Below are positions 11,761 through 52,372 of a DNA stretch of 52,666 bases, one piece after another. The translations under genes were made by a program, and so were the position numbers. How positions within the stretch are numbered: position 1 is the stretch's first letter; each line of letters starts with the position of its first letter. This DNA comes from Candidatus Gugararchaeum adminiculabundum (GTDB lineage: Archaea > Micrarchaeota > Micrarchaeia > Burarchaeales > Gugararchaeaceae), in contig CABMDC010000020.1 in NCBI GenBank assembly GCA_902384795.1, positions 1 to 52,666 of the forward strand, given 5' to 3'. The notes beneath the pieces are model-generated. The model was given only the letters and a program-made list of their open reading frames with translations, was not told the origin of the DNA and did no database searches.

Positions 11761-11822
11761 TCAGCCTCTTTCTTCTTTAAAAAGAAGAAAGACCCCGAAT
11801 GGAGAAAGAAGAAAAACGAAAA
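11761..11822 (+). repeat. Triple-arm repeat element, copy A (alba leader)
   Basis: After CAGCC (11762-11766) comes arm 1 TCTTTCTTCTTT (11767-11778), a 2-nt gap, then arm 2 AAAGAAGAAAGA (11781-11792), the perfect reverse complement of arm 1. A 10-nt box CCCCGAATGG follows (11793-11802). Arm 3 AGAAAGAAGAAA (11803-11814) is the exact mirror (reverse, not complement) of arm 2. ACGAAAAA closes the element. The same plan with different arms occurs at 51629-51690. Here it lies between the stop of the COG2433 gene and the alba ribosome binding site, so it forms part of the alba leader. Its role is unknown. Confidence 0.8.
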
Positions 11823-12261: not shown

Positions 12262-13563
12262 ATGATGCGGACACATTATGCGGCAGAAGTGACACCGGCC
12301 CTTGACGGCAAAGAGGTAACCGTGGCTGGCTGGGTCCACGAGACCCGCGACCTGGGCAAAATCCGCTTCATTCTTTTGCGCGACCGCACAGGCAAGGTGC
12401 AGGTGATCGGCAAAAAAGGCATAGTCGATGACTCGCTTCTCGCACTAATGAGCCAAGTAAAGGAAACAGTCCTGCAGATTAAGGGGAAAGTTAAAGCATC
12501 CCCGCAGGCGCCTGGCGGCATAGAGCTAATCCCCTCAAGCGTCACAATTCTAAATGAAGTTTCAGGCTTGATTCCGTTTGAAGTCACTGAAAAGGCGGCA
12601 GAGCCGGAAATTGATGTAAGATTGGACTTCAGATACGTTGACCTCAGAAGGCCGAAGCCGGCTGCAATTTTCAAAATCAAGAGCGAGATAATCACATCTT
12701 TCCGTGAATATTTAGTGCGGCAGCACGGATTCGTTGAGCTCACTCCAACGAGCATAGTCGCGGCTGCAACCGAAGGCGGCTCCAACCTATTCCCAATTGT
12801 CTATTTCGACAAAACAGCATACCTCGCCCAGTCTCCGCAGCTTTACAAGCAGCTTGCAGTGATTGGCGGGTTTGACAGGACAATGATGACCACTCCTGCC
12901 TTCCGCGCAGAGAAGCACAACACCACCTCGCACCTGAACGAAGTGCTTCAGATGGATATCGAAATGGGGTTCGCAGACCACCATGATGTGATGAAAATCC
13001 TCGGAGACGTCGCAATCCACGTCCTCTCGCAGGTGAAAAAGAACTGCAAGCCGGAGCTGGAAACGCTCGGAGTAGATCTGCATGTTCCGGACAAGGTTCC
13101 AATGCACACCTATTCCTCTTTAGTCGACCTCCTGAACAAGAACGGGGTAAAATTCGAATGGGGCGATGATTTCTCGCGCGAAACAGAAGGAGAAATCCAC
13201 AAGCTCCTGAAAGAAACCCTGTACTTCATCCACGAATGGCCCACGGCTATTCGTGCATTCTATTCAATGCCCAAGGAAGGCAATGAGAAAATCTGCAATG
13301 CCTTTGACCTGATGTACAATGGAACGGAAATTTCCAGCGGAGCGCAACGAATTCACAAGCCTGATTTGCTGATAAAAGCAATCCAGGACCGCGGCATGGA
13401 TCCTGCTAACTTTGAGTTCTACATAAACGCATTCAGAACTGGGGCTCCTCCGCACGCAGGCTGGTCAGTTGGATTGGAAAGAATTGCCATGAAGGCATGC
13501 GGAATCCAGAATATCCGCGAATGCGCGCTGTTCCCAAGGGACAGGACAAGGGTAACACCTTAG
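12262..13563 (+). CDS. aspS: Aspartyl-tRNA synthetase, archaeal type
   Basis: Charges tRNA-Asp with aspartate. It has 433 residues. The N-terminal OB-fold (TVAGWVHETRDLGKIRFILLRDRTGKVQV) binds the anticodon. The class II core shows motif 2 (MMTTPAFRAEKHNTTSHLNEVLQMDIE) and motif 3 (GWSVGLERIAMKACGIQNIRECALFPRDRTRVTP). It lacks the bacterial GAD insertion, as expected for the archaeal/eukaryotic type. ATG 12262 follows AAGGAGTGA. Because GatCAB is encoded at 38590-41669, this enzyme may be non-discriminating and also charge tRNA-Asn; that is inference, and an AsnRS elsewhere would weaken it. Confidence 0.93.
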   Translation: MMRTHYAAEVTPALDGKEVTVAGWVHETRDLGKIRFILLRDRTGKVQVIGKKGIVDDSLLALMSQVKETVLQIKGKVKASPQAPGGIELIPSSVTILNEVSGLIPFEVTEKAAEPEIDVRLDFRYVDLRRPKPAAIFKIKSEIITSFREYLVRQHGFVELTPTSIVAAATEGGSNLFPIVYFDKTAYLAQSPQLYKQLAVIGGFDRTMMTTPAFRAEKHNTTSHLNEVLQMDIEMGFADHHDVMKILGDVAIHVLSQVKKNCKPELETLGVDLHVPDKVPMHTYSSLVDLLNKNGVKFEWGDDFSRETEGEIHKLLKETLYFIHEWPTAIRAFYSMPKEGNEKICNAFDLMYNGTEISSGAQRIHKPDLLIKAIQDRGMDPANFEFYINAFRTGAPPHAGWSVGLERIAMKACGIQNIRECALFPRDRTRVTP

Positions 13564-25343: not shown

Positions 25344-25458
25344 TGCTCCGTCCGGGATTTGAACCCGGGTCGCCGCCTATCACTGGACGGATCCGCTTTT
25401 TGTAAAGGGTCGCCGCCTTGAGAGGGCGATATCCTTGACCGAGCTAGACGAACGGAGC
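25344..25458 (-). tRNA. tRNA-Glu(CTC) with a 40-nt intron
   Basis: The acceptor stem pairs GCTCCGT with ACGGAGC, and an A lies at the discriminator position. The T arm is GGGTTCAAATCCC, and the anticodon loop CTCTCAA gives anticodon CTC. The mature tRNA is 75 nt. The gene has 40 extra nt, most simply an intron after position 37 (minus-strand bases 25418-25379). The intron begins with a copy of the exon sequence AGGCGGCGACCC, so the exact boundary is ambiguous from sequence. A relaxed bulge-helix-bulge can be drawn at the canonical site with 3 of 4 central pairs. The sequence ends without an encoded CCA. Confidence 0.9.
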
Positions 25459-25504
25459 GTTGTGTTTTTTCCGCCCTAATCGGGGCGGCAAAACCTTTCT
25501 TTTG

Positions 25505-25590
25505 GATTCGACCAGCCTTTTCTTTGGAAAGAAAAGGACCCGATTTTTGCCAAAGCAAAAATGGGCGCATTTGTGCCGCTGCACAAATCG
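25505..25590 (+). repeat. Triple-arm repeat element, divergent copy C (between tRNAs)
   Basis: CAGCC (25513-25517) leads into a perfect hairpin, CCTTTTCTTT (25516-25525) with AAAGAAAAGG (25528-25537). ACCCGA follows, then a second hairpin ATTTTTGC-CAAA-GCAAAAAT and TGGGC. A third hairpin follows at ~25569-25589 (ATTTGTGC with GCACAAAT). Compared with copies A and B, the order CAGCC, arm pair, ACCC(C)GA, ATGG is kept. A hairpin is inserted in the box and the third mirror arm is lost. It lies in the spacer between tRNA-Ala and tRNA-Glu. Confidence 0.55.
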
Positions 25591-25599
25591 CGTGGGCAA

Positions 25600-51573: not shown

Positions 51574-51612
51574 ATTCAGCAAGGTTGAAATGAAAATTCA
51601 AAGGTGAAATGA

Positions 51613-51702
51613 TTGGCAGAAGTACCATCAGCCTCTCTTTTCTTTGCGAAAGAAAAGAGACCCCGAATGGAGAGAAAAGAAAACGAAAAAGATGAAAAAT
51701 AG
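51613..51702 (+). CDS. Upstream ORF in the atpD leader
   Basis: The duplicated start makes a 29-codon frame: TTG 51613 with AAAGGTGAAA upstream, beginning MAEVPSASLFFAKEKRPRM and ending in TAG at 51700-51702. The first five codons equal those of atpD; the rest is encoded by the repeat element. Translation would end ~10 nt before the real atpD ribosome binding site, so it could affect reinitiation on atpD. Expression is not shown. Confidence 0.45.
   Translation: MAEVPSASLFFAKEKRPRMERKENEKDEK
51629..51690 (+). repeat. Triple-arm repeat element, copy B (atpD leader)
   Basis: ATCAGCC is followed by arm 1 TCTCTTTTCTTT (51634-51645), loop GCG, and arm 2 AAAGAAAAGAGA (51649-51660), the perfect reverse complement. 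The constant box CCCCGAATGG (51661-51670) follows, identical to copy A. Arm 3 AGAGAAAAGAAA (51671-51682) is the exact mirror of arm 2, and then ACGAAAAA. Two arm positions differ from copy A, and both changes are matched in arms 2 and 3. It is a purine mirror repeat able in principle to form a triplex. Confidence 0.8.
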
Positions 51703-51721
51703 AAATTAAAGGTGAAAAATT

Positions 51722-52372
51722 TTGGCAGAAGTACCACCAACCCGCAAGGAACTCATGAACATAAAGAACCGCATAAAGCTTGCGAAAAAGGGGCACAAGC
51801 TCCTTAAGCAGAAGCGGGACGCTTTGATTCTTGAGTTCTTCAAAATCCTTGAAAAGGCCAAGGACCTACGGGGAGAGCTGAACGGGCTTATGGCTTCTGC
51901 CTACATCTCCATGAGCAAGGCGCAGGCGCACCACTCCACTTTTGAACTGGAAAACGTTTCCCTTTCAGTCAAAAAATCCACCGGCGTTAACGTTGAGACC
52001 CGCAACATCATGGGCGTGAACATTCCCATCATCGAGGGAACGGAAGTTTCCAAGCCCCTGACAGAAAGAGGCTATTCGATTCTTGGAACCAGCGCGAAAA
52101 TTGACGAAGTGGCGGAGTCATTTGAAAAGGCGCTGGACATGGTCGTAAAGCTCGCTGAAACGGAGAATGCGCTCAAGCGCCTGATTAGGGAGATTGAGAA
52201 AACCAAACGACGTGTGAATGCGCTCGAATACGTCATGCTCCCGCGCCTTGACCGCCAGAAGAAGATGATCATGCTTAGGCTTGATGAAATGGAACGCGAC
52301 TCATTTGTAATGCTAAAGACAATTAAGAGAAAACTTAGCAAAAAAGGGCAAGAGGAAAGGGAAGGAGAATAA
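51722..52372 (+). CDS. atpD: A/V-type ATP synthase subunit D (central shaft)
   Basis: The long coiled-coil rotor shaft, 216 residues. The blocks PTRKELMNIKNRIKLAKKGHKLLKQKRDAL, a variable middle (EGTEVSKPLTERGYSILGTS), and RRVNALEYVMLPRLDRQKKMIMLRLDEMERDSF are diagnostic. The start is TTG 51722 with AAAGGTGAAAAATT upstream. It is last in the operon; an upstream duplicate of its start region lies ~110 nt before it. Confidence 0.95.
   Translation: MAEVPPTRKELMNIKNRIKLAKKGHKLLKQKRDALILEFFKILEKAKDLRGELNGLMASAYISMSKAQAHHSTFELENVSLSVKKSTGVNVETRNIMGVNIPIIEGTEVSKPLTERGYSILGTSAKIDEVAESFEKALDMVVKLAETENALKRLIREIEKTKRRVNALEYVMLPRLDRQKKMIMLRLDEMERDSFVMLKTIKRKLSKKGQEEREGE

Follow-up and report, generated by a model that had tools for sequence, protein, structure and literature searches.

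Based on our analysis, two copies (A and B) of a short repeat in the 52,666-nt window (the whole stretch of DNA analysed here, contig 20 of a 1.47 Mb genome in 26 contigs) would belong to a dispersed and apparently mobile repeat of the class II (Y-R-R') intrastrand triplex type, in which the folded single strand is what is selected or spread, a reading to which we assign a probability of about 0.6. The evidence for it consists of three-way co-variation among the arms, restriction of the third arm to homopurine hairpins that start with the pyrimidine arm, copy number, flanking duplications and a sense orientation relative to the upstream gene. The initial annotation had described A and B as an inverted-plus-mirror element with covarying arms, and this observation is confirmed.

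Copy A reads CAGCC-TCTTTCTTCTTT-AA-AAAGAAGAAAGA-CCCCGAATGG-AGAAAGAAGAAA and copy B reads CAGCC-TCTCTTTTCTTT-GCG-AAAGAAAAGAGA-CCCCGAATGG-AGAGAAAAGAAA (Table 1). As first described, arm 1 is matched in both copies by an exact reverse complement (arm 2), which arm 3 in turn mirrors exactly (12/12); two positions differ between A and B in each of the three arms, so that every arm difference is compensated twice. The exact architecture of copy A thus stands as annotated, with its start moved from 11761 to 11762. The stretch ACGAAAAA 3' of arm 3 had been counted among the constant parts, which the other copies contradict, as they read on with ACGGAAAA, ACTAAAAA, CCGTTGAA or GACGACTG. No further perfect inverted-plus-mirror triple of at least 9 nt was found on either strand of the window, and an Rfam scan of the window returned one tRNA and otherwise no known RNA family.

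Table 1 Positions in the window of the repeat copies, their arms and boxes, the second family and the duplicated atpD start
Feature	Position	Strand	Context or remark
Copy A, whole element (CAGCC-arm1-loop-arm2-box-arm3)	11762..11814	+	between DUF460 gene (stop 11754) and alba
Copy A, arm 1 (pyrimidine)	11767..11778	+	
Copy A, arm 2 (purine; reverse complement of arm 1)	11781..11792	+	
Copy A, box CCCCGAATGG	11793..11802	+	
Copy A, arm 3 (purine; mirror of arm 2)	11803..11814	+	
Second family, TTTTCTTT-CC-AAAGAAAA-GGCTGGTCGAATCC-AAAAGAAA	25496..25535	-	3' of tRNA-Ala; three-arm architecture as in A/B
Upstream copy of duplicated atpD start region (candidate target duplication)	51588..51627	+	local alignment score 44, 0/1000 shuffles
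Copy B, whole element	51629..51682	+	between genes of A/V-type ATP synthase subunits B and D
Copy B, arm 1	51634..51645	+	
Copy B, arm 2	51649..51660	+	
Copy B, box CCCCGAATGG	51661..51670	+	
Copy B, arm 3 (mirror of arm 2)	51671..51682	+	
Downstream copy of atpD-start duplication, with real atpD start	51697..51736	+	ATP-synt_D

We covered the genome with a sample of approximately 360 kb plus pattern searches, and found seven copies of the CAGCC-Y-loop-R-CCCCGAATGG-R' pattern (A, B and five more) together with an eighth, L021, which starts with CCGCC and carries the variant box CCTGGAAGGG. The initial annotation had named further copies that break the mirror rule or lack hairpin pairing as evidence against the element; in all eight copies both the pairing of arm 1 with arm 2 and the mirroring of arm 2 by arm 3 are exact, while arm 3 is a direct repeat in none. 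The arms measure 9-12 nt and come in seven distinct sequences, with four differing positions in each of the three arms between copies A and L003, and the whole element is approximately 52-54 nt long. When arm 3 is dealt out randomly among the copies, a mean of only 1.2 of 8 remain exact. The genome additionally contains two hairpin-less forms, in which TCAGCCCCGAATGG is followed by a purine tract (CAGCCCCGAATGG-R copies), as expected from deletion across the hairpin. Outside this genome, the broad pattern CAGCC-N-CCCCGAATGG gave only unrelated chance matches in the viral contig set, the genome contig set and 196 class relatives, the strict pattern with box CCCCGAATGG had no match among the viral contigs, and looser matching across 60 relatives produced weak, dispersed hits, each with two mismatches and none a full element; the CCCCGAATGG box family is therefore known from this genome only.

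We surveyed 1.84 Mb of stretches from the same genome and from relatives of the same order and class. Perfect homopurine/homopyrimidine hairpins of at least 9 bp were pyrimidine-first in 46 cases and purine-first in none. A mirror third arm (at most 1 mismatch) accompanied 26 of these hairpins when one strand was read and 13 when the opposite strand was read, hence up to 39 of the 46 if none is double-counted, compared with 2 per 46 when flanks were shuffled, which makes the arrangement commoner than in scrambled sequence. The survey stretches were mostly chosen blind to the third arm, with those from the own genome and from high-copy genomes placed around known hits, which may have raised the third-arm fraction somewhat. 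The choice of stretches has no obvious effect on the 46-to-0 orientation, nor on the contrast with mixed-sequence hairpins, which had a mirror third arm in only 2 of 162 cases (shuffled, 3).

A direct-repeat control pattern failed to discriminate because the GAAAG cores are nearly symmetric, and mirror and direct repeats were therefore compared on asymmetric arms in stretches that had not been picked by the mirror pattern. Exact mirrors numbered 27 and exact direct repeats 4 among these asymmetric hairpins (each hairpin being listed on both strands). In a set preselected for mirrors, which biases its figure of 38 exact among 55, all nine distinct exact-mirror types with unequally spaced Gs reverse the order of the gaps. 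As far as can be read from the sequence, these are the rules of a purine-motif triplex and not of a simple repeat, and the proposed purine-motif triplex geometry is supported: a third arm only with homopurine hairpins, a pyrimidine arm always first, and mirror rather than direct symmetry.

A class II intrastrand triplex is defined by a 5' pyrimidine, a purine and a 3' reverse-Hoogsteen purine domain in one strand (PMC4666352), and all eight copies have these domains. Stems of 9-12 nt and a first loop of 2-3 nt fit both the ITxF limits (stem 6-15, loops 1-6) and those of Hoyne et al., as cited (stem >7, loops 0-10 nt), while the 10-nt second loop fits the latter but exceeds the 1-6 nt of ITxF. 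Such repeats (BoxC/PIT/TMECO, ITxF) are known mainly from bacteria, with unsettled function and a link to genome instability (PMC4666352). Like our family, the PIT/ITxF class II motifs (Holder et al. 2015, PMC4666352) have the order Y-loop-R-loop-reverse-Hoogsteen R, with stems of 8-15, and are scattered between genes; class II is their most abundant class, and they are tied to deletions and rearrangements. Unlike them, the present family has a fixed 10-nt second loop (the box) and A/T-rich arms that vary under a three-way match, and the family and its relatives adjoin stop codons or lie in tRNA introns and trailers, whereas PMC4666352 covers bacterial families with no mention of tRNA. BoxC/TMECO of Escherichia coli and relatives is likewise a class II repeat that is scattered in several copies over each genome and has a consensus of its own; membership of our family in it is rejected, since that consensus is G/C-rich (CCCTCNCCC N3-6 GGGNGAGGG N3 GGGNGAGGG, with a 3-nt second loop) and shares no sequence with the family, whose arms hold 2-3 G per 9-12 nt.

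Analysis of gene context showed that all ten family copies (the eight with a hairpin and the two without) lie downstream of a gene on the same strand, with seven of them (five with hairpin, two without) beginning within approximately 10 nt after the stop codon. The next gene is convergent in three of the ten, leaving no downstream start codon to regulate at these sites. The suggestion of a role tied to the leaders of abundant proteins is thus not supported: the copies trail gene ends, alba and atpD mark just two among many such sites, and B owes its "leader" place to the duplication of 40 nt at the start of atpD. Together, sites after genes, sense orientation to the upstream gene and some convergent neighbours argue against a leader regulator and for survival at harmless sites. 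A terminator is also rejected, as the U-rich arm lies 5' of the hairpin and not 3', and as related PIT elements showed neither promoter nor terminator activity (PMC4666352).

The start of the downstream gene is repeated directly around three copies, over 24 nt at L001 (22/24 identical), approximately 40 nt at B and 72 nt at L003, each of which was reached by 0 of 1000 shuffles. Such flanking duplications are clear in 3 of 7 copies, with variable length, and clear in none of the rest; the duplication ends 1-3 nt 5' of CAGCC. The simplest reading is an insertion close to the beginning of a gene, where the duplication of a long target stretch re-created the start. The alternative raised in the initial annotation, a small mobile repeat, gains from the eight copies, the flanking duplications and the two hairpin-less derivatives, and the A/B family is apparently mobile. 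It does not appear to be a MITE, which needs terminal inverted repeats and a fixed short target duplication, nor a repeat of the IS200/IS605-REP type mobilized by a Y1 transposase, as genomes G026, G029, G033, G044, G001, G006 and G019 have many copies yet no Y1_Tnp; the own genome has one Y1_Tnp. Across the high-copy genomes, we saw neither a Y1 transposase nor a reverse transcriptase tracking the repeats. Approximately 1 kb 3' of copy L001, we also observed a hairpin CTTTTTTGC-ttgag-GCAAAAAAG followed by CCCCAGGGG and AAAAGGGAAAACGG (L286:12996, + strand), possibly a decayed relative or one with a different box.

Under the class II triplex reading, the sense strand would carry in order a pyrimidine arm, a purine arm and a purine Hoogsteen arm, and whenever that strand is single, i.e., during replication or repair or as the non-template strand of a transcribed gene, arms 1 and 2 would form a hairpin. 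The box CCCCGAATGG would then turn the chain, and arm 3 would lie antiparallel to arm 2 in the major groove, forming A.A-T and G.G-C triplets. A point against this fold is that A-rich purine-motif triplexes are weaker than G-rich ones. If selection or the spreading process sees the folded single strand, a change in one arm would be kept only together with two matching changes. New copies would arise by insertions that duplicate 24-72 nt of target and would last at harmless sites, such as after a stop codon, after a re-created gene start or in tRNA trailers, with related families in tRNA introns. That the triplex folds in cellular DNA, and that it is used in spreading, we infer from these patterns. 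Because purine-motif triple helices are reported to form in single-stranded DNA and not in RNA (PMC4666352), we favour folding at the DNA level, in the lagging or the non-template strand.

What speaks most for a role in RNA is the strong sense bias; we rank this role first among the rival readings while still considering it unlikely. Here, the sense transcript would use the hairpin and an A-rich third arm as an A-minor triplex, or as a processing or 3'-end stability signal, which agrees with ten of ten copies lying sense to the upstream gene, mostly directly 3' of its stop codon, with the sense orientation of 36 of 37 tRNA-spanning relatives, and with RNA hairpins predicted for both A and B. 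However, exact mirroring of G by G corresponds to the reverse-Hoogsteen rule of DNA, and an A-rich strand in the minor groove needs no mirrored G positions; RNA reportedly does not form purine-motif triplexes (PMC4666352), and the predicted hairpin stability of B is unremarkable (z -1.6). Pyrimidine triplexes do form in RNA, and the reverse strand has the exact parallel Y-Y-R geometry for a pyrimidine-motif triplex (U.A-U, C+.G-C) in antisense RNA or DNA, of which the class II pattern would be a shadow. As the copies are sense, the main transcript would not contain that Y-Y-R strand, which serves as its template, and C+ triplets require acid; we consider this reading improbable.

It is also improbable that the repeat acts as H-DNA, i.e., as a double-stranded mirror repeat that works on local supercoiling or as a nucleoid landmark, with arm 1 incidental. 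Arm 2, box and arm 3 by themselves do form a homopurine mirror repeat whose halves are 6-10 nt apart, but neither the exact inverted repeat with arm 1 nor the 46-to-0 predominance of pyrimidine-first hairpins is explained in this way, and many hairpin-less copies would be expected, whereas two were found, all others having an exact pyrimidine-first hairpin. Finally, the intergenic DNA of this genome is A- and G-rich, which speaks for chance similarity of purine-rich sequence; yet eight copies share the box or its variant and all eight are exact mirrors, against 2 per 46 in shuffled controls, and we regard chance as refuted by the eight-copy mirror rule, the random dealing of arm 3 and the hairpin survey.

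Our analysis also revealed related families with other boxes. One arm pattern matches 22 of 60 relatives, with up to approximately 30 matches per genome and near-zero counts for reversed-pattern controls, and a second matches 13 of 60; the boxes are clade-specific. Of 81 elements, 77 have a box with at least 3 nt complementary to the 5' flank, compared with 33.6 expected (maximum 52 in 2000 permutations), and at least 4 nt in 35 of 81 (8.4 expected), so the stem, as we read the sequence, often runs on below a C.C mismatch into the flank. The CCCCGAATGG family lacks this match of box and flank. Pairing between the flanks is present in the other families, and no BHB-like pairing was found around the CCCCGAATGG family (969 of 1000 permutations reach the observed value). 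Excision of the element restored a tRNA called by ARAGORN in 37 of 96 related elements (36 of the 37 sense) and, with shuffled downstream flanks, in 9 of 96, in a rough test that under-calls T-loop introns and counts a few tRNAs located entirely next to the element. The loci of A, B and the other box copies contain no tRNA, these copies being placed 3' of stop codons or within duplicated gene starts; an archaeal BHB (tRNA-type) intron, which would interrupt a tRNA or other spliced gene, is rejected for this family. Within the same genome, tRNA-Gly, tRNA-Ile and tRNA-His (L293, L482 and L484) appear to have introns with the Y-R-R' motif, and the second family, found behind tRNA-Pro, tRNA-Val and tRNA-Ala, has in the window arms too symmetric to separate mirror from direct repeat.

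The architecture is not confined to archaea: IMG/VR viral and prophage contigs (L486-L533) contain A/T-rich Y-R-R' triples, some nearly identical between contigs, whose box is complementary to the 5' flank in 22 of 30 cases (9.9 expected). These share the family's architecture but differ in boxes and hosts and lack the CCCCGAATGG form. In Thermoproteales, transposed tRNA introns are known (Fujishima et al. 2010, cited in PMC4090602), from which the A/B family differs by sitting mainly after protein genes; we found no report of the relatives' Y-R-R' motif for these introns in the accessible part of the literature. The tie between tRNA introns and intrastrand triplex motifs offers a lead on how archaeal introns multiply, a mechanism called unknown in a review (PMC4090602). 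Conceivably, though we would bet against it, a foldback purine triplex with a target-matched box is the transposition unit of a class of archaeal elements that spread as tRNA introns and post-gene repeats; insertion would need the third strand, and the box would recognize its target through base pairing with the 3-5 nt that directly precede the insertion point. If true, such a target-reading unit would give a mechanism for large-scale tRNA-intron gain in archaea.

In the open-access literature, we found no prior report of intrastrand triplexes with tRNA introns or in archaea. New here are an archaeal family with a 10-nt box and arms that vary under a strict three-way rule, its insertion footprints, and the association with tRNA introns. 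The relevance of intramolecular DNA triplexes in cells has so far rested largely on enrichment counts and oligonucleotide chemistry, and three arms that change together across copies and lineages are comparative evidence for joint recognition of three strands.

Several further arrangements were observed near these elements. At approximately 25380-25470 (- strand) of the window, 3' of the second-family element, lies a tRNA-like, intron-interrupted sequence with the anticodon loop CTCTCAA that the automatic scan left uncalled. A double-hairpin module, CGCGATT..AATGCGCCCATTTT..AAAATCG, whose stems vary between copies, occurs beside tRNA-Ala (25536-25597, - strand), in a tRNA-Gly intron and in the loop of a Y/R hairpin (L293, L294). 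It also fills the loop of a GGGGC/GCCCC hairpin (L276 at approximately 12340-12395), and the corresponding hairpin in L287 (approximately 10356) is without it; the module looks like a mobile element. Finally, at L355:4755-4850 in relative G006, one Y/R triple seemingly separates the box of another from its third arm, an arrangement that suggests nested insertion.
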